DNA of 64,000 nucleotides from Treponema sp. (GTDB taxonomy: Bacteria; Spirochaetota; Spirochaetia; Treponematales; Breznakiellaceae), in NCBI GenBank assembly GCA_009777735.1, contig WRLF01000016.1, positions 1 to 64,000 on the forward strand, given 5' to 3'. The notes under the pieces were generated by a model. The model made no database searches. It had not been told where the DNA came from and saw nothing but the letters and a program-made list of their open reading frames with translations. Shown here piece after piece: positions 14 through 51,044 of this stretch (position 1 is the stretch's first letter; every line of letters starts with the position of its first letter). The position numbers and the translations under genes were made by a program.

Positions 14-188
14 GCCTAACAAACGATTAACGCTACGCCGCCTGTTCGGCGGATCGGGGTTCAGTCGGCTAGGTCGGTCGCCCTACGGGCTCGCTCCCAC
101 GCCTCCTTCACACACATAACCAGCCCCCGCAAACCTACGGTTTACTTTATATGGGGGCTGGTTACGTCGCCAACCTAGAACGTTAATT
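14..188 (+). repeat. Long imperfect hairpin, candidate attC-like recombination site
   Basis: The element begins with GCCTAACAAACG (14-25) and ends with CGTTAATTGC (181-190), like the outer boxes of integron attC sites (R'' RYYYAAC, R' GTTRRRY); the right box fits only loosely. ATTAACG (26-32) pairs with CGTTAAT (181-187), CTAGGT near 69-75 pairs with ACCTAG near 172-177, and AACCAGCCCCC (118-128) pairs perfectly with GGGGGCTGGTT (153-163). A promoter follows at once. No integrase gene is in the window, so attC identity is an inference from shape. Confidence 0.45.
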
Positions 189-217
189 GCAAGTTACAAA
201 ATATTCTTAATAGATAC

Positions 218-246
218 TTGACAGAGTAGTTTTTTTATTTTATTTT
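218..246 (+). promoter_or_regulatory. Sigma-70 promoter of the seven-repeat protein gene
   Basis: TTGACA (218-223), a 17-base spacer and TATTTT (241-246). The gene starts at 299 behind an AAAGGAGT Shine-Dalgarno. The promoter lies directly after the attC-like hairpin, so the gene would carry its own promoter if it moves as a cassette. Confidence 0.65.
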
Positions 247-298
247 AATTATAAGCAATGGATTTATTTCCATAAAACTTTAGAAAAGGAGTAAAACT

Positions 299-1438
299 AT
301 GTTAAGCTTTAAGAAATCATTTGATGTTCTCTGTAATTTAAGAGAAGTCATATTTTTCGCTGTTTTTGTGGTTTTTTCGACTTACTCTTTACATTCTTCT
401 TTTTTTTATTGGATAGGGTCTGAATCAAAAGCTTGTTATTGGACGGATAGTATACGTACTGATCTAGATATTCCCAATGGGACAATACATGCTAATGCCG
501 CTGCAATTACTGTAGATAATGGCATAGTGTACACCTCAGGCTATTATTATATGGAATTTCTGAAAGCAACGCCTTCCTATTGGATAAATACTAGACGTAC
601 CGAACTGCCTATTCCTGTAGGGGCTACTTCTGGTTATGCCAATAATATTACCGTAGTAAACGGTACAGTATATACTGCAGGAACTTATACAATAGGTGAT
701 GGATTGGATTCTGATAGTTCACAAAAAGCCTGCTATTGGACCGATACAGCACGTACTGATCTACCTGTTCCCAATAATGCGAGAGGTATTTCTGTGTCTG
801 GAATTACTGTGGAAAATGGCACGGTGTACACTGTAGGGTTTTATAATGTCGATAGTGGTGGTTCTAAGTATGTACCATGTTATTGGATAGGTACTGAACG
901 TGTCGATCTGCTTATTCCAGATGAGGCTACTTCTGGTTATGCCAATAATATTACCGTAGTAAACGGTACGGTATATACTGTAGGAACTTATATAATAGGT
1001 GATGGATGGAGTTCTAATAGTTCACAAAAAGCCTGCTATTGGATCGGTACGACATGTACTGATCTACCCATTCCTGCTGGAGCAAAGACAGCCAATGCAT
1101 CAGGGATTACTGTGGTAGACGGCACTGTGTACACTATAGGTAATTATGGTGATTTCCCAAACCATATTAGCAGATCCTGTTATTGGATAAACACTACACG
1201 TACCGACTTGCCTCTTCCCAATGGAATAATGGCAACTAACGCTACTGAAATTACTATTGTAAATGGTGCAGTGTACACCGCTGGCACTGATTTCTTTGGA
1301 AACCACTCTTGGACAGGCACTGTATTTGTTAATTTACCTATTCCCAGTGGTATGTATAGAGCTTTTACTTCTGGAACGACCTTAATAAATGGCACTGTAT
1401 ATACTTCAGGAGGTTATTTTACGCGAAGTGGCCAATAA
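299..1438 (+). CDS. Exported seven-repeat (propeller-like) protein
   Basis: A 379-residue protein of unknown function. Residues about 15-32 form a hydrophobic leader, and no lipobox is obvious. The rest is seven units of about 45-55 residues, each with a CYWxGTxRTDLPIP-like segment followed by ITVxNGTVYTxG. The WTGT segment of the last unit has lost its Cys. Seven blades of this size would suit a beta-propeller, but that is inference. Repeats two and four share long near-identical DNA stretches, suggesting recent internal duplication. The start is supported by AAAGGAGT about 6 bases upstream. The stop codon runs into TAACG, as attC left boxes often overlap a cassette stop. GC content looks lower than in the pfk/lgt region. 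Confidence 0.75.
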   Translation: MLSFKKSFDVLCNLREVIFFAVFVVFSTYSLHSSFFYWIGSESKACYWTDSIRTDLDIPNGTIHANAAAITVDNGIVYTSGYYYMEFLKATPSYWINTRRTELPIPVGATSGYANNITVVNGTVYTAGTYTIGDGLDSDSSQKACYWTDTARTDLPVPNNARGISVSGITVENGTVYTVGFYNVDSGGSKYVPCYWIGTERVDLLIPDEATSGYANNITVVNGTVYTVGTYIIGDGWSSNSSQKACYWIGTTCTDLPIPAGAKTANASGITVVDGTVYTIGNYGDFPNHISRSCYWINTTRTDLPLPNGIMATNATEITIVNGAVYTAGTDFFGNHSWTGTVFVNLPIPSGMYRAFTSGTTLINGTVYTSGGYFTRSGQ

Positions 1439-1556
1439 CGAAATTGTTTTCAACACAATTTGTCCTTCCATGTATAGATTGTATTTACCATTGGAATCAG
1501 AAATAGAATAGTCAATGTTCGGACTTGCGCCCTCTGCACGGTTTTGTTCTGCCGCA

Positions 1557-1620
1557 GTTTAGGCAGGAGTCAATGCTACGCATTGCCCCCTGCCTAAACC
1601 GTCAGTTACTTTGTTATGCG
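1557..1620. repeat. Hairpin with attC-like right end TTTGTTATGCG
   Basis: GTTTAGGCAGG (1557-1567) pairs perfectly with CCTGCCTAAAC (1589-1599), and inside it CAATGC (1571-1576) pairs with GCATTG (1580-1585). Ten bases further on is TTTGTTATGCG (1610-1620), whose GTTATGC matches many integron R' boxes. A possible left box overlaps the stop of the preceding gene (AATAACG, about 1434). The whole gap 1439-1657 holds nothing else recognisable. Confidence 0.45.
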
Positions 1621-1657
1621 ATGTGGTGGCGTACCCCATAAATTTATTTACATATTT

Positions 1658-2173
1658 TTATTTAACCATTTTCTTTAATGGTTTTATTGTTTTTAATCCC
1701 CAATCATAATGGCTGGATGTTGCAGAAATAAAATACGATCCCAATGATGTTGTTCCAGTCCATTGGTATTTCTTCTTTGTAAATAATTCATCATCATTAT
1801 GTTTTTCAATTAAAGCCATAACGTCTTTATAACTTTTCTTGAACATTGTTATTGACTTCTTTAATTCAGTCCCTTTATATTTTTCCCATATTCGTTGATT
1901 TAATTTAGGTAATGTCTGAAATGTATAGCCTTCAGCAGGTATTGCCGGTTTTTTACCAGACATTCCAACCTTGTACCAAGTTTCCATCATCAAATGCCAT
2001 TCATGTAAATGACAGATCACATCAGCGATTGTTTTATCCCGTTCATTTAATTCATTATTTTTGAAGGTTTTTGATTTAAATTCATCTGGTAATTCTCCAA
2101 TAAATTCCAATAATTTATTAGAGTTGCTTTCTGCCAGTTCAAGCAAGCTCTTTTTATTCGTTGGTCTAGCCAT
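1658..2173 (-). CDS. ClbS/DfsB-family (DUF1706) four-helix protein
   Basis: A 171-residue protein that I recognise as ClbS/DfsB family by its start (MARPTNKKSLLELAE), the RDKTIADVICHLHEWH helix and the C-terminal SHYDWG segment. The fold is a DinB-like four-helix bundle. The best-known member, ClbS, protects colibactin producers by hydrolysing the toxin warhead, but most members are uncharacterised and no colibactin genes are seen here. The start follows TTAGAGGAATA, a good Shine-Dalgarno. It is AT-rich, alone in its orientation and lies between two attC-like hairpins (ending 1620 and 2341), consistent with cassette cargo. A role in tolerating a genotoxic or antibiotic compound is inference. 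Confidence 0.75.
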   Translation of the reverse strand: MARPTNKKSLLELAESNSNKLLEFIGELPDEFKSKTFKNNELNERDKTIADVICHLHEWHLMMETWYKVGMSGKKPAIPAEGYTFQTLPKLNQRIWEKYKGTELKKSITMFKKSYKDVMALIEKHNDDELFTKKKYQWTGTTSLGSYFISATSSHYDWGLKTIKPLKKMVK

Positions 2174-2300
2174 ATTATTCCTCTAAATATGAAATCCTCA
2201 TTATAAAGTTATAGCATAAAATATATACTATGTAAAGTAAATAAGATGAACATTTTCGGACATTTTTTCAAATATTTTTAAACAATTTAGTCACCATTTC

Positions 2301-2341
2301 GCATAACTTATTATTAGTTGACTCTTTTTAGTAAGTTAGCG
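2301..2341. repeat. Short attC-like hairpin
   Basis: GCATAAC (2301-2307) and GTTAGCG (2335-2341) flank a stem in which TAACTTA (2304-2310) pairs exactly with TAAGTTA (2332-2338). Left box GCATAAC is the complement of the GTTATGC at 1612-1618, so the DNA between them (with the ClbS-like gene) could be one cassette. Confidence 0.35.
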
Positions 2342-2384
2342 CATATGGTGGAAATCTGTAATTCCGGCTTTTTGGAAATAGGCC

Positions 2385-2462
2385 GTCAGAGAGCAGAAGG
2401 CAGGCCGTCCCGCCCATTGCCCTCGTGCCAGCTAGCCGCTCTCTGACAGTTTGTTATCAGGC
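2385..2462. repeat. Hairpin element with TTTGTTATCAGGC tail
   Basis: GTCAGAGAGC (2385-2394) pairs exactly with GCTCTCTGAC (2438-2447), followed by TTTGTTATCAGGC (2450-2462). The right arm and tail recur before pfk (3685-3718), and the core CTGACGGTTTGTTACCAGGC also ends the element at 50128-50342. The element directly precedes a copy of the pfk 5' end. Confidence 0.6.
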
Positions 2463-2568
2463 AAATCGTATAGGTGACAATCACCAATTTTTACTGTACA
2501 CTGCCGTATGGTTACGAAACGAGGCAGTGTATCGAAAACTATCAGGATTTTAGCGGCAGGTGGAGATT
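2463..2568 (+). pseudogene. Duplicated 5' end and promoter of pfk (truncated)
   Basis: This stretch matches 3719-3824, an offset of 1256 bases. It includes the pfk -35 and -10 boxes, ATG (2507) and about 20 codons, then diverges after GGAGATT. Differences from the intact gene within the coding part include three amino-acid changes (S6G, G13R, T16A) and four silent ones, while the promoter part has a single difference. The copy and the intact gene bracket a lipoprotein gene and an XRE gene. The copied promoter would make only a short peptide. Confidence 0.8.
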
Positions 2569-2676
2569 TTAAGGTCTCTATAATTCCTGTCACTGCCTAT
2601 GATATCCTGTTCGCCAAATAGTTTTGCTGTTTCGGGTGACTAACACCCAGGCGTTACTTATTTATTATTCACACCA

Positions 2677-3132
2677 TTAAATACCTGTAACATCCAAAAA
2701 CAGATTGAACGTAATGGTAGTTTCAGAGCCAGTAATATTATATTTAGGCATCTTAGAATAGAAATCATCTTCAGTGACAATACCTAGTTGCTCTAATGTT
2801 TGACCATTTGTATATGCAAACATTTCATTTCCAATTTGTATGATAATATGGTATTGTCCACTTCCTGACCATGCACTACCACCAATTCCTTGTAAGGAAG
2901 CAGTAATAGAATTACCTGAAATTGATCCTTGCCAACCCGCAACTACTCCTTCAGCATTTTCACTAAAATAAGAATAAAGTAAAATTGCACCATTTCCGGA
3001 TTTTCCATTAAGCCCAGTAATGGTAATTTTATGCGGATCTGAGCTTCCATTACCATCATTGCACCCAACAACCATCATACTGAATACCAGAACCATTACC
3101 AGTATTCCCATCCAAATTTTTTTGTTAGCCAT
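2677..3132 (-). CDS. Small treponeme-type lipoprotein
   Basis: A 151-residue secreted lipoprotein of unknown function. The leader KKIWMGILVMVLVFSM ends in VVGC, a lipobox, followed by a Gly/Ser/Asp linker and a beta-rich domain (KITITGLNGKSG near residue 37). I chose the ATG at 3132: GTGAGGA lies about 8 bases upstream of it, but only 2 bases from the in-frame ATG at 3138. It is transcribed divergently from the XRE regulator at 3343, and the same lipoprotein/XRE arrangement recurs at 48433-50054. It lies inside the segment bracketed by the pfk duplication, so it was probably acquired with it. Confidence 0.8.
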   Translation of the reverse strand: MANKKIWMGILVMVLVFSMMVVGCNDGNGSSDPHKITITGLNGKSGNGAILLYSYFSENAEGVVAGWQGSISGNSITASLQGIGGSAWSGSGQYHIIIQIGNEMFAYTNGQTLEQLGIVTEDDFYSKMPKYNITGSETTITFNLFLDVTGI

Positions 3133-3255
3133 TTTCATTTCCTCACTTTGGTAACAACCTATCCTATCAATACAGATAGTAATTTAAACCTCTGGTTCAA
3201 CTCCAAACAGAGCCTTCCATTAGATTTACTTAATAGTGTATGAAATACCATACAT

Positions 3256-3295
3256 TCGGTAATACCGACAATTAATGCTATCAAATGTTTGATAG
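3256..3295. promoter_or_regulatory. Two palindromes between lipoprotein and XRE genes
   Basis: TCGGTAATACCGA (3256-3268) is an inverted repeat with 6-base arms, and CTATCAAATGTTTGATAG (3278-3295) has 8-base arms around TG. A further CGGTA half-site follows near 3322. Their position in the divergent intergenic region makes them likely operators for the XRE protein. Confidence 0.5.
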
Positions 3296-3342
3296 TTTGT
3301 CAACCTAATGGATTAATTATTCGGTAAAAGGGTGTATACTAC

Positions 3343-3657
3343 ATGGAAGAACAAGAACTTAGGGGAATTTTAGGCAATAATATCAAACGATGTCGGTTAA
3401 AAATAAATCTGTCCCAAATGTCTTTAGCCGAAAAAGTAGATATTTCGACCAATTTTTTAAGTGATATAGAAAGGTGTAAGGCATGGATTTCTCCAAAAAC
3501 ACTAGTCAAATTGGCCGCAGTATTGAATATTGAACCCTATGAACTATTTAAAGCCGATGCACTTTTGTCAGATACTGATAAGAGTATATTGCAGCATTAT
3601 GCAGATGAAAATATAAAAGCGGTTTTAAGTGTGATGAATCAAATCCGTGAAAATTAG
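3343..3657 (+). CDS. XRE-family transcriptional regulator
   Basis: A 104-residue protein with one helix-turn-helix domain at residues about 8-65 (NLSQMSLAEKVDISTNFLSDIER...ISPKTLVKLAAVLNIEPYELF) and a short helical tail. It is a relative of the XRE protein at 48433-48822; both share FLSDIE and the EVYELF/EPYELF ending. TATACT lies just before the ATG and AAAGGG further up, so either start context is unusual. It is likely autoregulatory through the palindromes at 3256-3295 and may control the divergent lipoprotein gene; that is inference from layout. Confidence 0.85.
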   Translation: MEEQELRGILGNNIKRCRLKINLSQMSLAEKVDISTNFLSDIERCKAWISPKTLVKLAAVLNIEPYELFKADALLSDTDKSILQHYADENIKAVLSVMNQIREN

Positions 3658-3684
3658 ATAAAATTCCTCGGCGTTTGCACTAGC

Positions 3685-3718
3685 CAGCCAGCCGCCCTCT
3701 GACGGTTTGTTACCAGGC
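3685..3718 (+). repeat. Right half of hairpin element before pfk
   Basis: The right arm (GCCAGCCGCC then CTCTGACGG) and TTTGTTACCAGGC tail match 2430-2462 apart from the expected few changes, but no matching left arm is present upstream because the XRE gene occupies that space. It marks the right end of the inserted segment. Confidence 0.55.
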
Positions 3719-3729
3719 AAATCGTATAG

Positions 3730-3758
3730 GTGACAATCACCAATTTTTACAGTACACT
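3730..3758 (+). promoter_or_regulatory. pfk promoter, probably giving a leaderless mRNA
   Basis: GTGACA (3730-3735), 17-base spacer, TACACT (3753-3758), then GCCGT and the ATG at 3764. Transcription would start at or beside the initiation codon, and there is no Shine-Dalgarno. Confidence 0.6.
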
Positions 3759-3763
3759 GCCGT

Positions 3764-4861
3764 ATGGTTACGAAACGAAGCAGTGTATCAAAAACAATTG
3801 GGATTTTAACGGCAGGCGGAGATTGCCCGGGTCTGAATGCGGCAATACGTGGGGTGTGCAGGGCGGCGCATGACCGGTATGGCATGAAAATATACGGTTT
3901 TTCTGATGGATTCCGGGGCATGATTGAAGAAAATGTGCGTGTCCTTAATCCGGCCGATTTTTCGGGGATTTTAACACGGGGCGGAACCATTCTGGGAGCA
4001 AGCCGGGAAAAGCCGTTCAAGTCCGCCATTGGAGATGCTGATGAAATAATCGGTGATAAAGTTGCCGCAATTAAAAAGACTTATAGCAAACTGGGGCTGG
4101 ACTGTCTGGTTCTGCTGGGCGGAAATGGCACCAACACCACCGGTTACCGTTTTGCAAGAGAGGGGCTAAACATTATCGGCCTGCCTAAAACCATTGATAA
4201 CGACATTGTGGGCACCGACAGAACATTTGGTTTCCATTCGGCGCTGTCAATCGGCACGGAGGCAATTGACCGCCTGCACTCAACTGCGCAAAGCCATAGC
4301 CGGGTCATGGTGATTGAGCTGATGGGGCACAAGGCTGGCTGGCTGGCGTTATATGCCGGGGTTGCCGGCGGCGGTGATGTCATTCTCATACCGGAAATTC
4401 CCTACGATATACAGGCTATAGGCCGCCACATTGAAGAGAGGGCTCTTTCGGGGAAAATTTTTTCCATCGTGGTTGTTGCCGAAGGTGCTCTCTCAATCAA
4501 GGAAGCAAAAATGGACAAGCGTGATCGCAAGAAATACCGTGCCGCAAACGGCCCTTCCGTTGCGTACCGTGTTGCCCGTGAAATCCAGGACGAGACTGGC
4601 AGGGAGACCCGCGCCTCTGTCCTTGGTTATATGCAGCGCGGCGGTATTCCCAGTGCTTCCGACCGTGTTCTTGCCACAAGCCTTGCCACTGCAGCAGTTG
4701 ACCTCCTTGCCAAAGGCGAATATGGCCGTATGGTGTGTTTAAGCGGCAATGAAATTAATTCCGTAGATCTGAGCGTACCGGAAGGAAAAGTAAAAACCGT
4801 ACCGGAAGATCACTACATGATTGATACAGCAGCTGCCGTGGGGACTTGCATGGGGGTATAG
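3764..4861 (+). CDS. 6-phosphofructokinase, atypical (ATP or PPi donor unclear)
   Basis: A 365-residue cytoplasmic PFKA-family enzyme that phosphorylates fructose 6-phosphate to the 1,6-bisphosphate in glycolysis. Visible motifs are GGDCPGLN (residues 18-25), the substrate loop PKTIDND with the catalytic Asp, and MGHKAGW. Donor residues are mixed: GGNGT in place of GGDGS keeps Gly at E. coli position 104 (ATP-like), whereas PKTIDND has the Lys at position 124 typical of PPi enzymes, and the Asp at 103 is Asn. This resembles atypical group members in which the donor cannot be read from sequence. The start follows a -10 box by five bases, with no ribosome site. A truncated copy of its 5' end lies at 2463-2568. 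Confidence 0.9.
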   Translation: MVTKRSSVSKTIGILTAGGDCPGLNAAIRGVCRAAHDRYGMKIYGFSDGFRGMIEENVRVLNPADFSGILTRGGTILGASREKPFKSAIGDADEIIGDKVAAIKKTYSKLGLDCLVLLGGNGTNTTGYRFAREGLNIIGLPKTIDNDIVGTDRTFGFHSALSIGTEAIDRLHSTAQSHSRVMVIELMGHKAGWLALYAGVAGGGDVILIPEIPYDIQAIGRHIEERALSGKIFSIVVVAEGALSIKEAKMDKRDRKKYRAANGPSVAYRVAREIQDETGRETRASVLGYMQRGGIPSASDRVLATSLATAAVDLLAKGEYGRMVCLSGNEINSVDLSVPEGKVKTVPEDHYMIDTAAAVGTCMGV

Positions 4862-4952
4862 AGAGTTAGGCGTTAGAAAATAATCCTTTTTAGCCGATAA
4901 TAACAACAAGAGACACACTGGAGACACCAATTTTTTCAGGAAAGGAGCTGCC

Positions 4953-5876
4953 ATGAGAAAATATTCTGCGTTTTTCCCCATAATTGCAGTTTTTGTATTA
5001 TTTTTTACCAGCGCAATAACCGGTAGCACCAATGAATTGCAGCAAAGAGGCAGACAAGGAGATTTTGCGTGGGAAAGGCATGGGAACAGGATTACCATTA
5101 CCCGGTATCACGGAACCGACAGGGCGGTAACGATACCTTCTGAGATAAACGGATTGCCTGTATCTATAATTGGGAATGACGCATTTACTGACAATAGACT
5201 GACCAGCGTTACCATACCTAACACCGTTACGTCCATTGGAAACAGGGCATTTTCCCGTAATGAGCTGACAAGTATTACCATCCCTAACAGTGTTATTTCT
5301 ATTGGGAACAGGGCGTTTTCTGCAAATGAGCTGACTAGTGTTACCATACCGAACAGCGTTACTTCCATCGGGAATGGGGCATTTTTATTGAACCAACTGA
5401 CCAGAGTTACTATTCCCAACAGTGTTACTTCAATTGGAGATTGGGCGTTTAGGGAAAACCGGCTGATAGGCATTACCATACCAAACAGTATCACTTCCAT
5501 TGGAGAAGGCGTATTTTTCAAAAATCAACTTACCGGTGTAATCATACCCAACAGCGTTACTTCCATTGGAGATTGGGCGTTTAGGGAAAACCGGCTGACC
5601 AGTGTTACAATACCGAACAGCGTTACTTCCATTGGTATTTCGGCATTTAGGGAAAACCGGCTGTCCAATGTTACAATACCAAGCAGTGTTACTTCAATTG
5701 GGAATGGAGCATTGTTCAGCAATCAGCTTGTCAGTGTCACCATTGGTGCAAATGTAATGCTTGGGTTATTTGGTGACAATTTTGAGACTGCTTATACCAA
5801 CAACAGCAGGAGGGCAGGCACATATACCCGGCCTGATACGAGCAGCAGAACCTGGACTTTACGGTTAAATACCTAA
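4953..5876 (+). CDS. Secreted BspA-type leucine-rich repeat protein
   Basis: A 307-residue exported protein. A signal peptide (residues about 1-24) is followed by a short cap and eight 22-residue repeats of the form LTSVTIPNSVTSIGxxAFxxNx, then a degenerate ninth and a Thr/Arg-rich end. This is the LRR_5 (Treponema pallidum/BspA) type, found in surface proteins that bind host matrix or other cells in some oral species; the ligand here is unknown. The DNA repeats are 66 bases long and very alike, so copy number is likely to vary between strains. GGAAAGGAG precedes the ATG. Its stop overlaps the convergent gene at 5873 by four bases. Confidence 0.88.
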   Translation: MRKYSAFFPIIAVFVLFFTSAITGSTNELQQRGRQGDFAWERHGNRITITRYHGTDRAVTIPSEINGLPVSIIGNDAFTDNRLTSVTIPNTVTSIGNRAFSRNELTSITIPNSVISIGNRAFSANELTSVTIPNSVTSIGNGAFLLNQLTRVTIPNSVTSIGDWAFRENRLIGITIPNSITSIGEGVFFKNQLTGVIIPNSVTSIGDWAFRENRLTSVTIPNSVTSIGISAFRENRLSNVTIPSSVTSIGNGALFSNQLVSVTIGANVMLGLFGDNFETAYTNNSRRAGTYTRPDTSSRTWTLRLNT

Positions 5877-6094
5877 TTACTGCCCCCCTTTTCCTTGAAA
5901 GAGGGACAGTTACTGCCGACAGCCTGGAATACCTCAACGGATGGCAAGAGACGGGATTTTATGGAAAAAATTTCACAGGAATAAGGCATCGCCGGATCCC
6001 AGCTTACCTTGAAATGAATGCACTTCAGGCAGTTGGGAGGGCGCGGTTTTTCATTTGGTTCGGTAGTACCCATTGCGGGCAGGGACGGAATCAA
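5873..6094 (-). CDS. Small four-cysteine conserved protein
   Basis: A 73-residue protein with PPNCLKCIHFKVSWDP, then SCEIFSIKSR and NCPSF, giving four Cys in a CxxC...C...C pattern that could hold zinc. I recognise the layout CxxCxxFxxTWDPxxPxxCxxFxxKSR from a short conserved bacterial protein sometimes mislabelled uracil-DNA glycosylase; no glycosylase motif is present. The start is TTG at 6094, eight bases after the stop of the upstream gene, with TAGGGA before it; ATG at residue 8 is an alternative. It is probably the second gene of an operon with 6101-6493. Confidence 0.65.
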   Translation of the reverse strand: MIPSLPAMGTTEPNEKPRPPNCLKCIHFKVSWDPAMPYSCEIFSIKSRLLPSVEVFQAVGSNCPSFKEKGGSN

Positions 6095-6100
6095 TGATCC

Positions 6101-6493: not shown

Positions 6494-6652
6494 ATCTTCA
6501 CCCCTTGCTTACTATTACTTACTATAAATATCGGATATTAAGACTTTTTTTTTAGAGGAAATATTGGATGGTACCCGGCCTCAGGAACATTTGAGGGTAT
6601 TTCATTGCCAAGCATCACTATTCACGATTTGTCTGCTGCTGTATAATAAGCC

Positions 6653-7595: not shown

Positions 7596-9407
7596 ATGCA
7601 AAAGAGAAAAACTAAAATTGTCTGTTCCCTTGGGCCGGCTTCATCAACAGATGAAGTTGTACGCAGCCTCATTCTCGCCGGCATGAATATCGCGCGTGTC
7701 AACTTCTCGCACGATGTTCATGAAGCACATCGTGTTACCATAGAACGTGTCAGGCGGGTATCTGCCGAGATGGGTGTTTCCGTCGCTATACTGCTTGATA
7801 CAAAAGGACCGGAAATACGTACCGGCATGGTTGAAAACGACGGGAAAATAACCATACAGAATGGTGACAGTGTAACTGTTACGACCGATGACTGCTTCTC
7901 GGTACCTGCACAAAATAACGCTCCGGCCAGCATATCAATTTCGTGGAAAGATGCAGTAAATAAATTACAAAGCGGTCATCGCATTCTCATAGCCGACGGG
8001 CTGCTGGAACTTGAAGTATTAGATATTAAGAATGGTCATATTAATTGCCTGGCTAAAAATTCTGCCGTTATTGGAAGTAAAAAAAATGTTAACCTAATCG
8101 GTGTTCATGCAAAACTGCCTATTATGGGAGAACAGGATTTAAAAGACATTGCTTTTGGCGTGAAAATGGATGTTGATTTTGTTGCAGCCAGCTTCCTGAG
8201 TTTCCCGTACGAAGTTACCGAAATCAGAACATATTTAAAGAGCCTTAATTCATCGATAAAAATAATTGCAAAAATCGAAAACGGTGAAGGGCTTGAAAAC
8301 ATCAGGGAAATCGCGAAGTTGGCGGACGGAGTGATGATTGCACGCGGAGATCTGGGTGTACAGCTTCCCACCGAGCAAATTCCGCTGGCGCAAAAACACA
8401 TAATTAATGTTTGCCGAAGGGTGGGGAAGCCGGTCATTACCGCGACGCAAATGCTGGAATCGATGGTGGTCAACCCCCGCCCGACACGGGCCGAGCTTAC
8501 CGATGTGGCAAATGCCATTATTGACGGAACCGACGCAGTAATGCTGTCGGGAGAAACAGCGATGGGGGCATATCCCATTGAATCGGTAAAAGTAATGGAT
8601 AAAATAGCCTGTACCATAGAAGAATCACCTGAATTCCGTACACGCATGAAAGACTTTCATGATGAATGTCATGCTGATACCGGTTCTCCTCATGAAAATC
8701 TGGGTATTATTATGTCACGGTCGGGAGTTACAATGGCATCGGCAGTAAACGCAAAAGCAATAGTAACACCGACACGATCGGGCAACACCGCACGGCTGCT
8801 CAGTACCTTCAGGCCTGACGAGCCGGTTCTTGCCGTAACACCGGATGAACATGCCGAACGGTCTATGCAGCTTTACTGGGGCGTATCTGCCTACCATGCG
8901 CCGCATGTCCATGGCTCTGATGCCATGATCCAAAACTCGATGAAAATCGCCGTGGATTCAGGCATTGCGGGCATATCCGATAAATTAATGCTTGTTGCCG
9001 GGTTGCCGCTGAAGAGCCCATACCAGGTTAATACGGTGCGTGTTCTTATCCTTGGCACAGTGCTGGCCCGATCCACCACCGGCGGTTTCTCAAACACAGA
9101 CATTACCCGTATACGCGGTAAAGTTATCCACGCACAAACTCCCCATGAAGCACGTGACAGAATAATGTCGTCCGGCGGCGAAATACTGGTGTGCAAAGTG
9201 CTTACCGATGACTACACGCCCATTATCCGAATCGTAAAAGGCGTTATTTGCGAAGAAGTTTCGGAAATCAGTGAGTATAAATTACGCATGACAAACCCAA
9301 ACCTTGTATGGCTTACCCAAATCAGGCATGCAAAGGAAAAACTCGAATCCGGATTAACGGTAACAATGGATGCCCAACAGCTTTTGGTCTATGAGGGTTC
9401 TATTTAA
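7596..9407 (+). CDS. pyk: Pyruvate kinase with C-terminal swivel-like domain
   Basis: A 603-residue glycolytic enzyme making pyruvate and ATP from PEP and ADP. It starts KRKTKIVCSLGPAS and carries the substrate motif IIAKIENGEG with the catalytic Lys, ARGDLGVQ, and RPTRAELTDVANAIIDGTDAVMLSGETAMG. Ordinary enzymes have about 470 residues; here about 100 more follow (from KVIHAQTPHEARDRI), like the PEP-utiliser mobile domain in some Gram-positive pyruvate kinases but without an obvious catalytic His or the ECTS loop. I placed the start at the ATG at 7596: the reading frame extends further upstream, but that part overlaps lgt and lacks homology. It is four bases after lgt. Confidence 0.95.
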   Translation: MQKRKTKIVCSLGPASSTDEVVRSLILAGMNIARVNFSHDVHEAHRVTIERVRRVSAEMGVSVAILLDTKGPEIRTGMVENDGKITIQNGDSVTVTTDDCFSVPAQNNAPASISISWKDAVNKLQSGHRILIADGLLELEVLDIKNGHINCLAKNSAVIGSKKNVNLIGVHAKLPIMGEQDLKDIAFGVKMDVDFVAASFLSFPYEVTEIRTYLKSLNSSIKIIAKIENGEGLENIREIAKLADGVMIARGDLGVQLPTEQIPLAQKHIINVCRRVGKPVITATQMLESMVVNPRPTRAELTDVANAIIDGTDAVMLSGETAMGAYPIESVKVMDKIACTIEESPEFRTRMKDFHDECHADTGSPHENLGIIMSRSGVTMASAVNAKAIVTPTRSGNTARLLSTFRPDEPVLAVTPDEHAERSMQLYWGVSAYHAPHVHGSDAMIQNSMKIAVDSGIAGISDKLMLVAGLPLKSPYQVNTVRVLILGTVLARSTTGGFSNTDITRIRGKVIHAQTPHEARDRIMSSGGEILVCKVLTDDYTPIIRIVKGVICEEVSEISEYKLRMTNPNLVWLTQIRHAKEKLESGLTVTMDAQQLLVYEGSI

Positions 9408-11513: not shown

Positions 11514-11541
11514 TGTTTCCTGCCCCTCTGACGGCTTGATT
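11514..11541 (+). repeat. Degenerate hairpin-element right end
   Basis: GCCCCTCTGACGGCTTGATTTCCAGG resembles the right end of the elements at 3685-3718 and 50311-50342 (CTGACGGTTTGTTACCAGG) with several changes. It lies just outside the MazEF module, at the same kind of boundary as the other copies. Confidence 0.35.
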
Positions 11542-43619: not shown

Positions 43620-43659
43620 GGTTAAAGCATAGCACAAAGATAAATATTTTTTTAGAGGC

Positions 43660-45269: not shown

Positions 45270-45288
45270 GAACGGTAAAACAGCAGGT

Positions 45289-46824
45289 TTATGAAAACTG
45301 CACAGACTCTTCTTCGGTTTCTTCTTCCTGTAAAGCCTTGAGAGTCCTGGTATTTTGCATTAACTCGGCAAAATTGCCGCCGTTGATAATATTAACTGCT
45401 TCCTGCAGTTGCACATCGTATTCAAGATCGTACACAGGCGCAATTGTCGTCCGGTTCCGTTCATTGCGGATGAGCCGCCTCAGAAGGGTAAGATCAAGGC
45501 CGTATTCACTCTCCAACGACCTGGCAAATGTCTCAATCTGGGCGGGGCTTGCCTCCTGGTTGTCTCTGACAAAAGAAGGTATTCGATTATCATTAATAAG
45601 ACTGTTAAGCTTTTCCGCATCGGCATCGGTGAATTCGGGAAACCTCACCAGCCTATCAGGGGGTATGCCGATTCTGTCAATGTTTGCATCGCTGGGAGTA
45701 AAATAACGGGCAGTAGTGATCTTGAAACCAGCCGCATCCAGCGGGTATACCTGTTGAACAGAGCCTTTGCCGAATGTTCTTTCGCCGACAAGGTATGCCC
45801 TGCCCCGGTCTTTGAGGGCCCCGGCAACAATTTCTGACGCAGAAGCAGAACCCCTGTTTATCAGCACCACAATCGGAATATCGGCAGGGACAATGGACGG
45901 ACGGCGGGTGTTTGTGTTGAACACATGATTTTCCGCCGGTATCCGCGACCTGGTACTGACCACAACTCCGCTTTCCAGGAACAGGCTGGCAATGTCAATT
46001 GCGGAATGCAGAAGTCCGCCGTAATTGTTCCGTACATCAAGAACAACACCCTGGTAATTATTCTCCCTGAAATAATTAATTGCTTCGACTGTACGGTCTA
46101 CCGTCCTGGGCGTAAATGTAAGGAGGTTAAGGAACCCGATATTATCAATCATCGCATGCCTGACTGTGGGAACCTCAATTATCGCTCTGGTCAATGTAAT
46201 GGGGAATTCAATTCTTTCCCCGCGGCGGATTACCAAATTTACATCCGTGCCGGGAGTGCCGCGTAACCGCGCTACCGCTTCTTCCTGCGTCATTATATCC
46301 GTCGGTTCATCATTGATCCTGATGATTTGATCCCCGGGATTAATGCCGGCCCTCCAGCCCGGTGTATTTTCAATGGGTGCGGCCACTTCAAGGAAGGCAG
46401 GCCGCCCGTCGGCACGGGCTGCGCTTGGTTTGTTAACATACAGCCCCACACCGCCGAAAGCCCCCTGGGTTGTATCGGCAAGTTCATTCATTTCCGATTC
46501 GGGCATAAAAACAGAGTAGGGATCATCGAGGGCATTAAATAACCCGTGCATGGCCCCTTCAAACATGACTTTCGAGTCAACTTCATCAATATAGTACCTC
46601 TGGATATAATTAAAAACCAGTTGGATGGTATCAGCGTACCTGCGGATCCTTCGTGCATTATCTGGCTGCTCTATTTGGACAGAGTCTCGTACTTGTGCAA
46701 GCACTCCCGGAACGGAAGCGAAGGCAAACACTATACAGAGCAATACTGTAGATGCAATCCATATCCATGAAAACGGGATTTTTCTCTTTTGGGGCTTTTC
46801 AGCCGGGAATTCCATATCGTTCAT
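45289..46824 (-). CDS. ctpA: C-terminal processing protease (S41)
   Basis: A 511-residue periplasmic serine protease with an N-terminal membrane anchor (about 18-42), a helical tether, a PDZ domain (about 105-205; GGVGLYVNK...AGINPGDQIIRINDEP) and the S41 core with the Ser in NRGSASASEIVAGALKD and the Lys in GERTFGKGSVQQVYPL. The last 110 residues are an extra helical tail. CAGGAG lies six bases before the ATG. It heads a likely operon with rsmE and the glycosyltransferase; it trims C-terminal ends of exported proteins. Confidence 0.93.
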   Translation of the reverse strand: MNDMEFPAEKPQKRKIPFSWIWIASTVLLCIVFAFASVPGVLAQVRDSVQIEQPDNARRIRRYADTIQLVFNYIQRYYIDEVDSKVMFEGAMHGLFNALDDPYSVFMPESEMNELADTTQGAFGGVGLYVNKPSAARADGRPAFLEVAAPIENTPGWRAGINPGDQIIRINDEPTDIMTQEEAVARLRGTPGTDVNLVIRRGERIEFPITLTRAIIEVPTVRHAMIDNIGFLNLLTFTPRTVDRTVEAINYFRENNYQGVVLDVRNNYGGLLHSAIDIASLFLESGVVVSTRSRIPAENHVFNTNTRRPSIVPADIPIVVLINRGSASASEIVAGALKDRGRAYLVGERTFGKGSVQQVYPLDAAGFKITTARYFTPSDANIDRIGIPPDRLVRFPEFTDADAEKLNSLINDNRIPSFVRDNQEASPAQIETFARSLESEYGLDLTLLRRLIRNERNRTTIAPVYDLEYDVQLQEAVNIINGGNFAELMQNTRTLKALQEEETEEESVQFS

Positions 46825-46950
46825 ATATACTCCTGTAGTAATTATCGGCTAAAAAGGAATATTGTACTAGGGTTGGGTTCCACAAACCCTGAATTTTCGC
46901 TGAGCAAAATTGGTAAACCAGCAATGTATACCCTCAAAGTATACTTATGC

Positions 46951-47060
46951 AGGGCCCGTCGGCGACCAAACGCACCGCTTCGCGGTACGCTTGTCACCGA
47001 CACCCGCCCTTGTCATATTTAAATGGTTTACATTGCTGCCGTTTCGGTAATGTACTATAC
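46951..47060 (+). repeat. Palindromic repeat, left of fic
   Basis: GGGCCCGTCGG, an inner ACCGC-TTC-GCGGT hairpin, then CACCGACACCCGCC and an ACATT...AATGT hairpin. GTCGG/CCGAC and GGGC/GCCC pair across the element. The same layout, in the same orientation, lies at 48290-48424 on the other side of the fic gene. The gap 46825-47130 has nothing else recognisable. Confidence 0.65.
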
Positions 47061-47130
47061 AATCAGGGATTGCTTTACTGATAGGGAAGAGGCTGACTGC
47101 TGTGTGGCTGGAAAAAGGTGTCACCACCAA

Positions 47131-48198
47131 TCAGGTTTTTAACAGATTCATCAGGCTGTTATTGATGAATAATTTTTCTTTTCCGGCTTGTATATGGGAT
47201 AAAAAACTATTATCTTCCAGTTCCGTTAAATATTTTGATGCTGTTTTCCGGTTTATGCCAAGTTTTGTAACCAGAAAATCTATTTTTGAATAAGGATTTT
47301 CAAAAATTATCTCTACCAGTTCTTTTGAGTATAGTTTAGGACACTTGTTTTTTACTTCAACAAATGTCAATTCCAGCAGATCTTTTATGTTTCGTATTTT
47401 TTCCAGTGTTTTTTTTGCTGTTTCTTCTATTCCGTCCAGGATATATAGTACCCAGCGTTCAAAATAGTCAATATCTCTGGATTCCTGTAAAAGATGATAG
47501 TAATCGTCTTTATGGTTTATTATATATGAACTTAAGTAGAGAATCGGAGTATCCAGATATTTTTTAAGCAGCAGATATAAGACATTCAATATTCTGCCGG
47601 TACGTCCATTACCATCATAAAAAGGGTGAATACTTTCAAACTGATAATGTAACACCGCCAATTTCCAAAGATCATTCTCATCATCGTTTAAATATTTGCA
47701 CAAATTATCCAGCAATTGTATTATTTCGTTGTAATCCTGCGGCGGCGTATATATAATTTCATTGGTCGCATCATTGACAAGAGAAGTCCCGGGAAGGCGG
47801 CGAATTCCGGCATTGTTTCCTGTTACTATTTCCTGGATATTCACAATGTCACTGACTCGTATTAATTGATTTTTCCTGACAATATCATATCCTTTATAAA
47901 CAGCTTCGCGGTAATTGATAACCTCTTTCGCAGCCAGATCGGTAATCCCGGTATTTATTGTAAGGCTTTTATATAAGTCATCATGCGTTGTTACGATATT
48001 CTCGATGGCTGAACTTTCTTTAGCTTCCTGCAGGGCGATGGCGCTGATTAATATATTTTGGTTTGGGATAACAGATGCATATCCTTTCAATTCCGCCAGA
48101 GCTTGCCGGGCCTGAGCCTCTTTCCGCAGAACTGCCTTTGTTTCAATTTTTTCCGGATTAAATGGCAATAGCGGTAATTTTGCCCCCTCAATCTTCAT
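47131..48198 (-). CDS. fic: Fic-domain AMPylase-like protein with C-terminal winged helix
   Basis: A 355-residue protein with an N-terminal inhibitory-type motif (KESSAIENI, the SxxxEN form), the Fic active site HPFYDGNGRTGRI after FES (catalytic His 1, Asn/Gly/Arg all present) and a C-terminal winged helix (YSKIDFLVTKLGINRKTASKYLTELEDNSFL). Fic enzymes transfer AMP or other nucleotides to Ser/Thr/Tyr of target proteins; in bacteria many are regulatory or toxin-like. The ATG at 48198 has AGGAC only, and the -10 box ends six bases before it. It is flanked by direct repeats and next to an XRE gene; the winged helix may bind its own promoter. Confidence 0.9.
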   Translation of the reverse strand: MKIEGAKLPLLPFNPEKIETKAVLRKEAQARQALAELKGYASVIPNQNILISAIALQEAKESSAIENIVTTHDDLYKSLTINTGITDLAAKEVINYREAVYKGYDIVRKNQLIRVSDIVNIQEIVTGNNAGIRRLPGTSLVNDATNEIIYTPPQDYNEIIQLLDNLCKYLNDDENDLWKLAVLHYQFESIHPFYDGNGRTGRILNVLYLLLKKYLDTPILYLSSYIINHKDDYYHLLQESRDIDYFERWVLYILDGIEETAKKTLEKIRNIKDLLELTFVEVKNKCPKLYSKELVEIIFENPYSKIDFLVTKLGINRKTASKYLTELEDNSFLSHIQAGKEKLFINNSLMNLLKT

Positions 48199-48203
48199 GT
48201 CCT

Positions 48204-48266
48204 AAATTTAATGAAATTTACCCGTGTTGTCAACTCATATCCAAAATTTAGTGTTTTTTACCCATG
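48204..48266 (-). promoter_or_regulatory. fic promoter and two 23-base direct repeats
   Basis: On the minus strand TTGACA (complement 48228-48233), 17-base spacer, TAAATT (48205-48210), then six bases to the ATG. Two direct repeats of the form AAATTTA-nTGnnnTTTACCC-nTG (48204-48226 and 48244-48266) lie 40 bases apart, about four helical turns; one covers the -10 region and spacer, the other lies just upstream of the -35 box. They look like operators for the winged helix of Fic. Confidence 0.55.
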
Positions 48267-48289
48267 AAATAGTTCTTCAATACTTGTAC

Positions 48290-48424
48290 GGGGCCCGTCG
48301 GCTGGTCTCGCCTGCAGACGGCAGGCGCACGCACCGCTTGCGCGGCACGTTTACCACCGACACCCGCCTAATCAAATTTTATATAATACATTGCTGCTTT
48401 TTCTGCAATGTACTGTACTATCAA
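48290..48424 (+). repeat. Palindromic repeat, right of fic
   Basis: This is the second copy of the element at 46951-47060, in direct orientation: GGGGCCCGTCGG, an extra CGCCTGC...GCAGGCG hairpin, CGCACCGCTTGCGCGG, CACCGACACCCGCC and TACATTGC...GCAATGTA. The last hairpin could also stop transcription of fic or the XRE gene. The DNA between the two copies, about 1.2 kb, holds only the fic gene. Confidence 0.65.
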
Positions 48425-48432
48425 GGTTTACG

Positions 48433-48822
48433 TTATTTTTTTTGGTTTATTTTGGAGGTGTCGGTGTAATATCGGCGCATTTTGGTAATGGACTTTTTCA
48501 CGGCGGGGCGGACTGCTTCTTCTATGGACTTGATAAAAGCATCATCTACGTCATCAAGGTATCTGGCGACTGCGGCGGATACATCGTCCCTGATGGTTTT
48601 TTCCGGTTTAAATAGCTCGTAGACTTCGATTTTTAAGGCTTTAGCAAGCTGTGAAAGGGTTTGAGCGGAAACCCATTTTTTGCCGGTTTCGATGTCGCTC
48701 AGGAATGTAGTGGAAATGCCCAGTTCTAGGGCCAGATGAAGCTGGGATAAGCCAATCCGGTTTCTGTAATGTTTTATATTCCGGCTCAATACTGCGCGGC
48801 AGTTTTTTTCATCTTTGTTCAT
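48433..48822 (-). CDS. XRE-family transcriptional regulator
   Basis: A 129-residue protein with one helix-turn-helix domain (about 10-66; IGLSQLHLALELGISTTFLSDIETGKKWVSAQTLSQLAKALKIEVYELF) and a Lys/Arg-rich helical tail. It is related to the XRE protein at 3343-3657. Like that one, it is transcribed divergently from a lipoprotein gene (49005), and a CGGTA half-site lies in the intergenic region (near 48850). Confidence 0.85.
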   Translation of the reverse strand: MNKDEKNCRAVLSRNIKHYRNRIGLSQLHLALELGISTTFLSDIETGKKWVSAQTLSQLAKALKIEVYELFKPEKTIRDDVSAAVARYLDDVDDAFIKSIEEAVRPAVKKSITKMRRYYTDTSKINQKK

Positions 48823-48888
48823 GGCTTTTTTCTTTCTCTTTTGAAGTAACGGTATAAAGCATTAGTTTCACTTGAGCATGAATAAAAC

Positions 48889-48917
48889 TTGACATTATCT
48901 CAAAAAGCCAATAGAGT
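48889..48917 (+). promoter_or_regulatory. Promoter of the lipoprotein gene at 49005
   Basis: TTGACA (48889-48894), 17-base spacer, TAGAGT (48912-48917). The gene's AAGGAG Shine-Dalgarno and ATG lie about 90 bases downstream. A CGGTATAAAG half-site near 48850, just upstream, could bind the divergent XRE regulator. Confidence 0.5.
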
Positions 48918-49004
48918 TACTAATATACTACAACTAATGGCTGATTTAAAAACATTTTCATAAATCCTCGTATGAGGGTTTTAATTATGGTTAAGGAGTT
49001 TTTC

Positions 49005-50054
49005 ATGAAGAACATAACAAAATTTTTCGGGCTTATCGCATTGGCAGCGGTAATCGGGCTTTCAATGACCGCCTGTCCCATGGATGAAGGCGGCGGCAAT
49101 GGCTCTGGTAGCGGCAGCAACTCTCTCGAGGCGAAGTGGTATATGACGCAGGAGGCGGCTGATATTGGAGGAAATGACTGGATTTTTGAAATTACCAATG
49201 AAGGTAAATTCGTACTTAAAGACGATCATGACACAGACGTTTTTTCCTATACCGCAGCAGGCGGTGTAATCACCATCTCTCTGTCTGAGCAGGGGCAATC
49301 CATGACTATGGGAACGGTGGATTATTTATTATCAGGGACAGAGCTCACCTTAAGCAACGGAACGCAGGAACTTCAGATTATGGTGTCTATAATGTTTTAC
49401 AAAAAGAAACCCCCATCACCATCCGATCATGCGCCCCTCTCTTTTATGCACGGATCATGGTATAATATCGATGACGGTATCTCGTTTTCGCTTAGTTTGC
49501 CCGGATCTGTAGCCATTCCTCAAGGCGCTTCGGAAACATTGACCATGCGGCTGGAATTAATAACCAGTACGGAAATTCGTATCGATCGAATGGGGACTGC
49601 GGGAGTAGGGCTGCCCTATCAGTCGTATGAGCAATGGGTTGTAGCGAACCGTTCGGATATTAGTGGTGCGGGTGTCTCATTGTTGAACCTGGCTAATGAC
49701 GGCAGTAATAATTATAGTACTGGTCCAATCTGGATTTACCACAGGCTTGATGAAATGCGGGACAATAGAGGAGGTCGTCTTGATGAAGGAGTTGTCCAGA
49801 ATGACTGGGATGTTTTAAGCTTTATTAACGCCTCATCACCCATAAATGCGAACATCGACACCTCCATCCTGCTGCTCGACGGTACGCTTAATTTCTACGA
49901 AGAAGGCGCCAATACGCTTATCTGTACCATGCGGTTCTTTTTTATCCGGGACTGGGATCGGGCTAAAGATGCAATCGTTATCTATGATTTTAAATTACAT
50001 GTACCCACAAGTTACGACATACCTCAAGAAGGTGTGTATGAGAGAAGTATGTAA
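49005..50054 (+). CDS. Two-domain lipoprotein
   Basis: A 349-residue lipoprotein. The leader KNITKFFGLIALAAVIGLS ends MTAC, the classic treponeme lipobox, followed by a Gly/Ser-rich linker, a first lipocalin-like beta domain (WYMTQEAADIGG...LYLLSGTELTLSNGTQELQI, residues about 38-130) and a second beta domain to the end. The role is unknown; surface or periplasmic. I chose the ATG at 49005 (AAGGAG seven bases upstream) over an in-frame ATG at 48972. It is divergent from an XRE gene. Confidence 0.8.
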   Translation: MKNITKFFGLIALAAVIGLSMTACPMDEGGGNGSGSGSNSLEAKWYMTQEAADIGGNDWIFEITNEGKFVLKDDHDTDVFSYTAAGGVITISLSEQGQSMTMGTVDYLLSGTELTLSNGTQELQIMVSIMFYKKKPPSPSDHAPLSFMHGSWYNIDDGISFSLSLPGSVAIPQGASETLTMRLELITSTEIRIDRMGTAGVGLPYQSYEQWVVANRSDISGAGVSLLNLANDGSNNYSTGPIWIYHRLDEMRDNRGGRLDEGVVQNDWDVLSFINASSPINANIDTSILLLDGTLNFYEEGANTLICTMRFFFIRDWDRAKDAIVIYDFKLHVPTSYDIPQEGVYERSM

Positions 50055-50127
50055 ATAAACGATAGACAAAGCACGGGTGATAAACACTCGAATCAGCTGA
50101 TATACCTCGTACTTTCTGCAACCAAGG

Positions 50128-50342
50128 CCGTCAGGCGGCGGCGGGCGAAGCGGGGCGCGAATGACTTCTGCGACGAGCGAGTAAAGGGGGTAACCAACTC
50201 CGACCTTCGCGTCGGCTTGCCTGACTACTGAGTTATATTGCTGCAATGGTCAGGCAAACGCGAAGGCGTGTAACCACGACATGGAGCAGCAGGAATGAGT
50301 GCTCCGCTGAGCCCGCCGCCGCCTGACGGTTTGTTACCAGGC
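50128..50342. repeat. Large (about 215-base) imperfect hairpin element
   Basis: CCGTCAGGCGGCGGCGGGC (50128-50146) pairs exactly with GCCCGCCGCCGCCTGACGG (50311-50329). Inside it, AGCGGGGCGCG/AGCGG-GC-C and CCTTCGCGT...TTGCCTGAC/GTCAGGCAAACGCGAAGG form further arms around a loop near 50228-50250. TTTGTTACCAGGC (50330-50342) follows, as after the elements at 2385 and 3685. The stretch 50055-50629 has no other gene; the rest is a duplicated oxidoreductase fragment. It is GC-rich and unlike its surroundings. Confidence 0.7.
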
Positions 50343-50354
50343 TGACAAATCAGG

Positions 50355-50576
50355 GTTTACGCTATTTTCACCGCTTGCATTTGCGCCCTCACGCATAACT
50401 CGGCGGCCTTGAACGCATGTTCCTGGGTCATGGCATTTTCTGTGCGGTTAAGACAGTCGAGGATGAGCTGTCCGAAGAAGGGATACCCCACTTGTCCTTC
50501 GACATTGTAGTACGTTTCTTCCTGGTTGTTTGCCAGATACACGTGGCCGCCCCGGCTGCCTTTTTCACCAAGCTGC
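50355..50576 (-). pseudogene. Duplicated 3' end of the Gfo/Idh oxidoreductase gene
   Basis: 222 bases matching 51074-51295 with an offset of 719 and only about eight differences. It encodes the last 73 or so residues and stop codon of the gene at 51076, and seven of the eight differences are silent (one changes Gln to Arg). The in-frame conservation implies that it diverged while under selection, so it came from a working gene in a related strain. It lies between the hairpin element and HicBA. Confidence 0.85.
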
Positions 50577-50629
50577 GTTGGCTGTTATCCCATTTAATGA
50601 TACAATAAGGCAAAATGATAGGAGTATTT

Positions 50630-50854
50630 ATGAATTTTGATGTGGAATTTGAACAAGAAGAAGACGGGCGTTGGATTGCTGAAATAACGGAAATTCCCGG
50701 CGTACTTGCATACGGAATAACTCCATTACAGGCAGGAGCACGGGCACGAGCCTTGGCTTTACGTGTTATAGCGGATCGTATGGAAAACGAATCGTCAATT
50801 CCCGGTATTAACTCAATTGCATTTGTAGATCGTTATGCGATGGCCGTCAATTAA
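50630..50854 (+). CDS. hicB: HicB-family antitoxin
   Basis: A 74-residue short HicB antitoxin: an RNase-H-like fold FEQEEDGRWIAEITEIPGVLAYGITPLQAGARARALALRVIADRME. The C-terminal DNA-binding segment is missing or very small. The ATG at 50630 has AGGAG five bases upstream; the in-frame ATG at 50615 includes the Shine-Dalgarno in its first codons, so is unlikely. It overlaps hicA by 20 bases. The order (antitoxin first) is the reverse of the most common HicAB arrangement. Confidence 0.85.
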   Translation: MNFDVEFEQEEDGRWIAEITEIPGVLAYGITPLQAGARARALALRVIADRMENESSIPGINSIAFVDRYAMAVN

Positions 50855-51044
50855 TGCTAAACGTCTTTTGGCAGCATTGCTGAGAATTGGGTGGTCAATA
50901 AAAAGGCAATCCAGTTCGCATAAAACATTAGAGAGGTCTGGTTATCCTGATTATGTCTTTGCCTTTCACGACAGTGAGGAAATAGGATCAAAAATGGTGG
51001 CAAGAGTGGCAAAACACACCGGATTAAAGCATGATGATTTGTGA
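50835..51044 (+). CDS. hicA: HicA-family mRNA interferase toxin
   Basis: A 69-residue toxin with a double-stranded-RNA-binding-like fold: LLAALLRIGWSIKRQSSSHKTLERSGYP places the catalytic His after the Ser run, and SKMVARVAKHTGL forms the last helix. HicA cuts mRNA and tmRNA. It overlaps the hicB stop by 20 bases, so the toxin is made by coupled translation. The short protein ends 32 bases before the stop of the convergent oxidoreductase gene. Confidence 0.85.
   Translation: MRWPSINAKRLLAALLRIGWSIKRQSSSHKTLERSGYPDYVFAFHDSEEIGSKMVARVAKHTGLKHDDL

Follow-up and report, generated by a model that had tools for sequence, protein, structure and literature searches.

A spirochaete cassette array probably belonging to integrons whose integrase is a tyrosine recombinase lacking I2

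Results

A short attC array at the left end of a Treponema contig

The stretch of DNA analysed here (the window) comprises the first 64,000 nucleotides of contig WRLF01000016.1 (C16:1-64000) of a Treponema sp. assembly (GCA_009777735.1; 2.69 Mb in 39 contigs, 83% complete). According to the original prediction, palindromic hairpins border nearly every accessory gene in this DNA and plausibly form an array of attC recombination sites without an integrase (cluster of attC sites lacking an integrase, CALIN) or belong to a related cassette mover. We find that the hairpins sort into three unrelated families, referred to here as types A, B and C, of which type C is attC, and that the window's left 2.3 kb very probably belongs to an integron cassette array of a spirochaete lineage in which a tyrosine recombinase lacking the I2 domain serves as integrase, recombination itself being inferred. 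The features of the left end are as follows:

14..188, plus strand: attC of the kind found in I2-less integrons (R'' GCCTAAC at 14-20, R' GTTAATT at 182-188; covariance model R2)
299..1438, plus strand: gene for a seven-repeat protein, cargo of the first cassette (379-aa open reading frame (ORF) between attC 14-188 and the element at 1557-1620)
1547..1620, plus strand: attC 3' half (R' GTTATGCG at 1613; likeness to the type C consensus judged by eye)
1658..2173, minus strand: ClbS-like DUF1706 gene carried by the second cassette (PF08020, E 1.5e-52)
2300..2341, plus strand: shortened site resembling attC, the last of the array (R'' CGCATAAC at 2300, box GTTAGCG at 2335)

A family attC covariance model, built from 18 sites including the one at 14-188 itself and two on contig C19, scored the window site at 152 bits (E 2e-39), and a copy of this site with 98% identity lies at C19:1003-1187, the divergence beginning at the R' box GTTA. 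The two shorter elements fared differently in the model search: with filters off, 1557-1620 gave matches at noise level (9.2 bits and E 0.05 for 1592-1619, which lies on the opposite strand; 4.6 bits for 1547-1602), so that its assignment as an attC half rests on R' GTTATGCG and on consensus likeness, and 2301-2341 gave no model match on the right strand. In integrons, the nucleotides that come after G^TT in R' are those of the following cassette, whose R'' they pair with. Boxes 1613 (R') and 2300 (R'') complement each other exactly, as in cassette arrays. The attC at 14-188 also folds better than shuffled sequences (z -3.2). No Pfam match at E<=0.001 was obtained for the seven-repeat protein.

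Strict R'' and R' patterns found a single box in each type C element (R'' at 14 and 2301, R' at 1613) and none in type A, type B, the short type A hairpin, 3685 or 11514. The attC-like boxes of the original prediction thus exist at 14-188, with remnants at 1557-1620 and 2301-2341, and not at the other hairpins; the covariance search agreed for 14-188, returning noise for the remnants and noise alone at 45500-52500. Model matches beyond the window were found on C19, on C32 (107 bits; this site was not in the training set) and in many relatives. In all, the genome holds two full sites, one site cut by a contig end and a weak fragment on C19, one site on C32, and one full site with two remnants in the window; both testable junctions on C19 are complementary. 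At least two attC sites with no integrase nearby, as expected of a CALIN, are present in this genome, and the CALIN description holds for window positions 1-2341, C19 (1-3792) and C32 (about 21.8 kb), though not for types A and B, which carry no attC boxes.

A complete integron in Breznakiella homolactica

The one-contig chromosome of Breznakiella homolactica RmG30 (G047; Spirochaetota, Breznakiellaceae) carries 41 attC sites across 38.5 kb, covered by 42 attC model matches, all on one strand. Upstream of this array and on the same strand lies the gene for a 417-aa tyrosine recombinase, with the attI core GTTAGAC between the two, and the chromosome has no match above the IntI cut-off. Of the comparable neighbouring boxes, attI core included, 35 of 39 are exactly complementary (two sites have no readable R'), compared with a mean of 7.3 and a maximum of 17 in 10,000 shuffled re-pairings. 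Folded as single-stranded DNA, one of the sites forms an R/L stem with three hairpins on it (z -6.6).

The same arrangement across the family and in Paenibacillaceae

We searched 195 family genomes with a recombinase profile made from eight proteins (threshold E<=1e-75). The new recombinase was detected in 68 genomes, representing 35 of 56 genera, the Treponema genome under study being negative, while a canonical integrase scored above the cut-off in 5 of the 195. None of these five has type C attC DNA or the new recombinase, and the comparison with the chromosomal integron of Treponema denticola, drawn in the original prediction, is for that reason misleading. Type C DNA matches (E<=0.001, some of them short) occur in 83 of the 195 genomes and in 31 of 56 genera.

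For 43 of the 73 profile rows the recombinase locus was examined; 11 loci were cut within 700 bp, and the other 32 (at least 700 bp of sequence) were scored. A downstream attC match on the same strand was present at 19 of the 32, and the link between attC and recombinase is tighter at loci than per genome. An attI core, defined as the exact complement of the first R'', lies between the recombinase and the first attC at 16 of these 19 loci, 0.1-1.2 kb downstream of the recombinase (1.9 would be expected from the boxes of other loci). Complementarity was also complete in chains elsewhere (G179, 2/2; G042, 3/3; contig C26 of G001, 2/2), and G179, like G177, has a recombinase with downstream attC matches. 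In the relatives, then, the recombinase gene stands on the strand of the array, followed by an attI core and by cassettes in one orientation with complementary R' and R'' boxes along the chain.

A scan of named genomes yielded 179 relatives of the recombinase. The best 80 of the 179 are mostly Treponema or other spirochaete records, many of them presumably from termite or cockroach guts, going by isolate codes, and include 17 Paenibacillus and Saccharibacillus loci. In Paenibacillaceae, 46 attC-like sites follow 13 of the 14 recombinases examined, the exception having 778 bp downstream. With one Spirochaetales metagenome-assembled genome (MAG) added (15 loci), the pattern detected 47 sites in 69 kb downstream and 0 in 88.5 kb upstream; a control on shuffled sequence gave two sites in one set, so chance probably accounts for part of the 47. 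Because the site pattern is palindromic, counts on opposite strands (46 versus 47) are uninformative. The pattern has an 85-bp minimum, and earlier regular-expression detectors missed most 96-bp sites (one of them gave a chain of 6/12). Exact complementarity was found for 20 of 33 neighbours in this set (re-pairing mean 2.2, maximum 9), and the spirochaete attC model gave 8 weak matches (21-30 bits) in Paenibacillaceae. In the Spirochaetales MAG, CSMAG_2727 (L339), a more divergent related recombinase is followed by one attC-like site at 7629-7790.

A recombinase without I2 and attC sites mostly without the extrahelical base

The I2 domain sets integron integrases apart from other tyrosine recombinases. 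The match of the new recombinase to the integrase model TIGR02249 is split (about positions 4-178 and 233-314), as is its alignment to VchIntIA (2a3v), in which residues 181-239 are unmatched. Motif spacing is 91-93 in the I2-less recombinases (92-93 in Paenibacillaceae) as opposed to 133 in canonical IntI, the latter value coming from two of five proteins, the others giving none; among the spirochaete rows, NEW_L229 gave a meaningless value and NEW_L228 none. A predicted structure contains no helix between residues 320 and 338 (pLDDT 80.1, pTM 0.47). I2 is thus absent from the measured spirochaete and Paenibacillaceae recombinases.

The new recombinases share with canonical IntI (VchIntIA 2a3v; TIGR02249) the tyrosine recombinase fold, the invariant catalytic residues, an SPLD-like C-terminal end and a place beside attI and attC, but they lack about 41 residues including the I2 region, and seven of them score 186-210 bits against a cut-off of 265. 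Their nearest fold is that of XerA, XerC and XerD, likewise without I2 (205-218.5 bits in the XerA-type model NF040815, cut-off 220); unlike Xer, they possess an extra N-terminal domain and a neighbouring attI and cassette array, and the two Xer proteins of the Treponema genome itself fall outside the new-recombinase group in a tree. The N-terminal domain gave no meaningful Pfam match; a possible likeness to HARP domains found no support in this analysis. The domain of the Paenibacillaceae proteins is clearly akin to the one carried by two canonical integrases of spirochaetes (G048 and G178; probability 97, E 6.5e-11). With hhalign, the I2-less spirochaete domain compared poorly with the others, at probability 0.75 (E 0.075) and 9.9 (E 0.003). 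A tree rooted on two Xer proteins has the Paenibacillaceae proteins branching off first and groups the spirochaete proteins with IntI (91/80), a node that lies below the threshold of the tool in a small sample with long branches.

Canonical attC sites carry extrahelical bases that are docked by I2, as described in PMC7790495. In the sites beside I2-less recombinases, a 1-nt bulge extends the L stem by at least 2 pairs in 1/38 Breznakiella, 1/28 Paenibacillaceae and 0/20 other spirochaete sites, compared with one extra base doing so in 5/5 sites of a canonical control (G049; best of 9 ends, near-copies included). No L stem at all was seen in 1/38, 3/28 and 6/20 sites, respectively. The sample consisted of 38 of the 41 Breznakiella sites, Paenibacillaceae sites found by motif and 20 spirochaete sites chosen by hand from model matches. 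The attC sites of I2-less integrons are thus mostly without the L-box extrahelical base of canonical sites.

Type A and type B hairpins and the duplicated borders of other cargo

The remaining hairpins and associated cargo of the window are:

2385..2462, plus strand: short type A hairpin without conserved core, not attC (tail in common with type A; direct-repeat family D13)
2427..2568, plus strand: duplication copy 1 (142 bp: type A tail and 5' end of a phosphofructokinase-like gene; 91.5% identical to 3683-3824)
3683..3824, plus strand: duplication copy 2, including the tail at 3685-3718
3685..3718: type A tail alone (direct-repeat family D13)
46941..47077, plus strand: type B repeat of nested palindromes adjoining the Fic gene, not attC (E 1.9e-14 to the other type B copy)
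48280..48440, plus strand: type B repeat of nested palindromes at the opposite flank of the Fic gene, not attC
50126..50342, plus strand: type A structured repeat, not attC (217-bp long hairpin, 66 predicted pairs)
50343..50576, plus strand: duplicated 3' end of an oxidoreductase gene, left of HicBA (94.9% identical to 51061-51295)
50615..51044, plus strand: HicBA cargo between the two gene-end copies (HicA PF07927, E 1.5e-9)

Hairpins are present at most of the positions originally listed, although they belong to three families rather than one kind, and the degenerate one at 11514-11541 is unsupported, being absent from the 29 genome matches (E<=1) to the type A element. The predicted shared tail, a 13-mer (TTTGTTAYCAGGC), is real, occurring 8 times in the 2.69-Mb genome as against 0 for a reversed control.

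Nine full copies of type A align into one long hairpin in which 25 of 66 pairs show compensatory changes, and conserved tandem G-A motifs are visible by eye within it. The genome itself has 12 model matches, two of them cut at contig ends; among the 195 family genomes, type A was otherwise found, under strict filters, in the same-genus genome G001 only (two copies), a 29-bit match in G164 looking like chance. In G001 the type A core sits within a different outer palindrome (L120, L123). The idea that type A is a known structured RNA was rejected, since 50060-50400 had no Rfam match at E<=10; the whole window gave one sub-threshold match elsewhere at E<=5. A widespread distribution was likewise rejected, with 0 exact pattern matches in named genomes and viral contigs, a scan that may exclude the genome under study. 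The covariation suggests that type A is a structured RNA or a folded DNA. Type B yields 42 alignments in the genome at E<1e-5; type B repeats lie near the ends of C3, C9, C15, C17 and C29, and may break the assembly. As attC sites, both types were rejected (no boxes; attC model at noise, best 7.1 bits at 45500-52500), and A and B hairpins are repeats separate from the integron. The further suggestion that more than one mover is involved is a fair one, and we identified no mover of A or B. A single REP-associated tyrosine transposase (RAYT), which may or may not have a part in moving them, was found at C1:25529-25870 (L099; NF047646, 90.5 bits against a cut-off of 80), and no type A or B copy was seen beside it.

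The lipoprotein/XRE cargo is flanked by the 142-bp direct duplication (91.5%), which includes part of a putative phosphofructokinase-like gene, and HicBA by a 235-bp direct duplication of the adjacent gene end (94.9%), the gene being a putative oxidoreductase. The HicB-like ORF (50615-50854) had no Pfam match. Such duplications would fit integration by recombination (a single crossover) with a circle carrying the gene end; no empty HicBA site was found among 17 oxidoreductase loci of the genus, all of which had different neighbours (one of them without a visible flank). Divergent lipoprotein-like/XRE pairs recur: the two in the window (2677-3657 and 48433-50054) each adjoin a type A or B element, and a third is an integron cassette in C19 (L092, 1285-2568). 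Two repeat proteins with units of 66 nt and 69 nt, leucine-rich-repeat-like by appearance, are encoded at 4953-5876 and 54952-55716.

Discussion

By its anatomy (recombinase, attI, one-way cassettes and box complementarity), the arrangement described here would work like an integron, although I2, the defining feature of integron integrases, is absent from its recombinase. In this reading, a cassette comprises one gene and, behind it, an attC site of about 150-200 bp. The recombinase would act on one folded attC strand, an R/L stem carrying several hairpins, would cut at G^TTRRRY, and would use attI to take up circular cassettes. As both I2 and the L-box extrahelical base are missing, the choice of strand and the avoidance of second-strand exchange must presumably come from elsewhere, for which asymmetric unpaired spacers, a branched attC core or the N-terminal domain are candidates. 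The array in the window would have lost its integrase, or the assembly would be without it.

Several observations weigh against this interpretation. In the window, the chain holds at one of two junctions: the box due after the first attC is missing, and the next site has no 5' half. In the minimum-energy fold of the window attC, R'' and R' are not paired with each other. When the window was scanned more loosely for boxes plus a stem, 4 candidates emerged on the plus strand and 3 on the minus strand, and since one of these (50116-50238) overlaps type A, such a scan lacks specificity by itself. The genome yielded neither a canonical nor an I2-less integrase (an 83% complete assembly, with the new-recombinase profile at E<=1e-75), so that the array in the window may be dead; the integrase may also be missing from the assembly. 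Per genome, the association of attC and recombinase is weak (both in 37, attC only in 46, recombinase only in 31, neither in 81; one-sided p 0.011), which gaps in MAGs and low sensitivity may explain. At the level of loci, 13 of the 32 have no attC match, five of these with 6-18 kb examined; 3 of the 19 positives are partial matches at contig ends (E 0.0005-0.005); and at least G009 and G118 have an upstream attC match. The chain fails on contig C5 of G001 (1/4), in G177 (0/1) and at L333 (0/1). Finally, Breznakiella sites retain, as judged by eye, a 2-nt CT bulge beside L'' that might itself serve as an extrahelical element.

How the elements move can be explained in other ways. That all hairpins are attC sites or variants of a single cassette mover would account for the position of types A, B and C, all of which adjoin accessory genes here, and a right-flank motif is common to A and B (by eye), but we consider this reading highly improbable: R'' and R' boxes are missing from A, B, the short type A hairpin, 3685 and 11514, the attC model scores noise alone at 45500-52500 (best 7.1 bits), and type A is restricted, under strict filters and barring the chance-like 29-bit match, to its own genome and one same-genus genome of the 195. 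A canonical IntI might instead move the arrays in trans, the neighbouring I2-less recombinase being unrelated. Canonical IntI is indeed present in the family (5/195), and activity of the I2-less recombinase on the arrays is predicted from sequence. We nevertheless regard this as very unlikely, given that the one-contig Breznakiella chromosome has no match above the IntI cut-off, that the five IntI genomes are without type C attC DNA and without the new recombinase, that an attI core follows the I2-less gene at 16 of 19 loci, and that the same arrangement is repeated in Paenibacillaceae.

A different question is whether the sites recombine as double strands, in the manner of Xer and dif, rather than as folded single strands. 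This appears unlikely, if less so than an unrelated recombinase. The bases after GTT vary by cassette while their complement is kept in the R'' of the same cassette (35/39), which fits pairing within a folded strand better than a homology-dependent overlap, and the two strands tested fold better than shuffled sequences (z -3.2 and -6.6). Our preferred interpretation remains an integron served by an I2-less recombinase that probably acts on folded strands.

The tree is compatible with I2 as a later gain, although it does not show it. The I2-less integrases may, tentatively, be living representatives of a pre-I2 stage, in which an Xer-like enzyme, perfect L stems, folded attC cassettes, attI and capture would have come first; the extrahelical base would have been gained later, at the same time as I2. 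A secondary loss of I2 from ordinary IntI is about as conceivable, and we would not presume it either. Such a loss is favoured by the N-terminal domain that canonical spirochaete IntI (G048 and G178) and the Paenibacillaceae proteins have in common (probability 97, E 6.5e-11), but the branching order of the Xer-rooted tree would require more than one loss, an order that rests on long branches, a small sample and a node below threshold.

With respect to known systems, the chromosomal integrons of T. denticola and T. succinifaciens, as presented by Wu et al. 2013 (PMC3607928), are alike in having a cassette array, attC sites with R and L boxes and an integrase gene pointing to the array. Their attC sites, however, are given there as 63-68 bp (up to 132), whereas those described here are about 150-200 bp, branched, and accompanied by a recombinase without I2. 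In that study, integrases were found by annotation and by similarity to T. denticola IntI, and integrons are described as absent from Treponema of termite guts, namely from T. primitia ZAS-2 and T. azotonutricium ZAS-9. The stretches on C16, C19 and C32 fit the description of CALIN, except that in relatives attC of the same type adjoins a recombinase scoring below the usual IntI cut-off. For Firmicutes, passages of the IntegronFinder 2.0 report (PMC9024848) mention one complete integron (Limnochorda pilosa) and a few CALIN. Among the titles and abstract openings listed by searches of the open-licence literature, we found no report of I2-less integron integrases, nor of integrons in T. primitia, Breznakiella or Paenibacillus.

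The new recombinase in 68 of 195 family genomes, compared with a canonical one in 5, and its presence in Paenibacillaceae suggest that searches based on IntI models pass over integrons. I2 is reported to be essential for IntI1, and the joint origin of I2 and attC has been called a chicken-egg paradox (PMC4792948). For that reason the natural I2-less integrons proposed here, with attC sites mostly without the matching extrahelical base, would allow the origin of integrons to be tested directly; and if these integrases do represent a stage before I2, they would answer the chicken-and-egg question of how integrons began.

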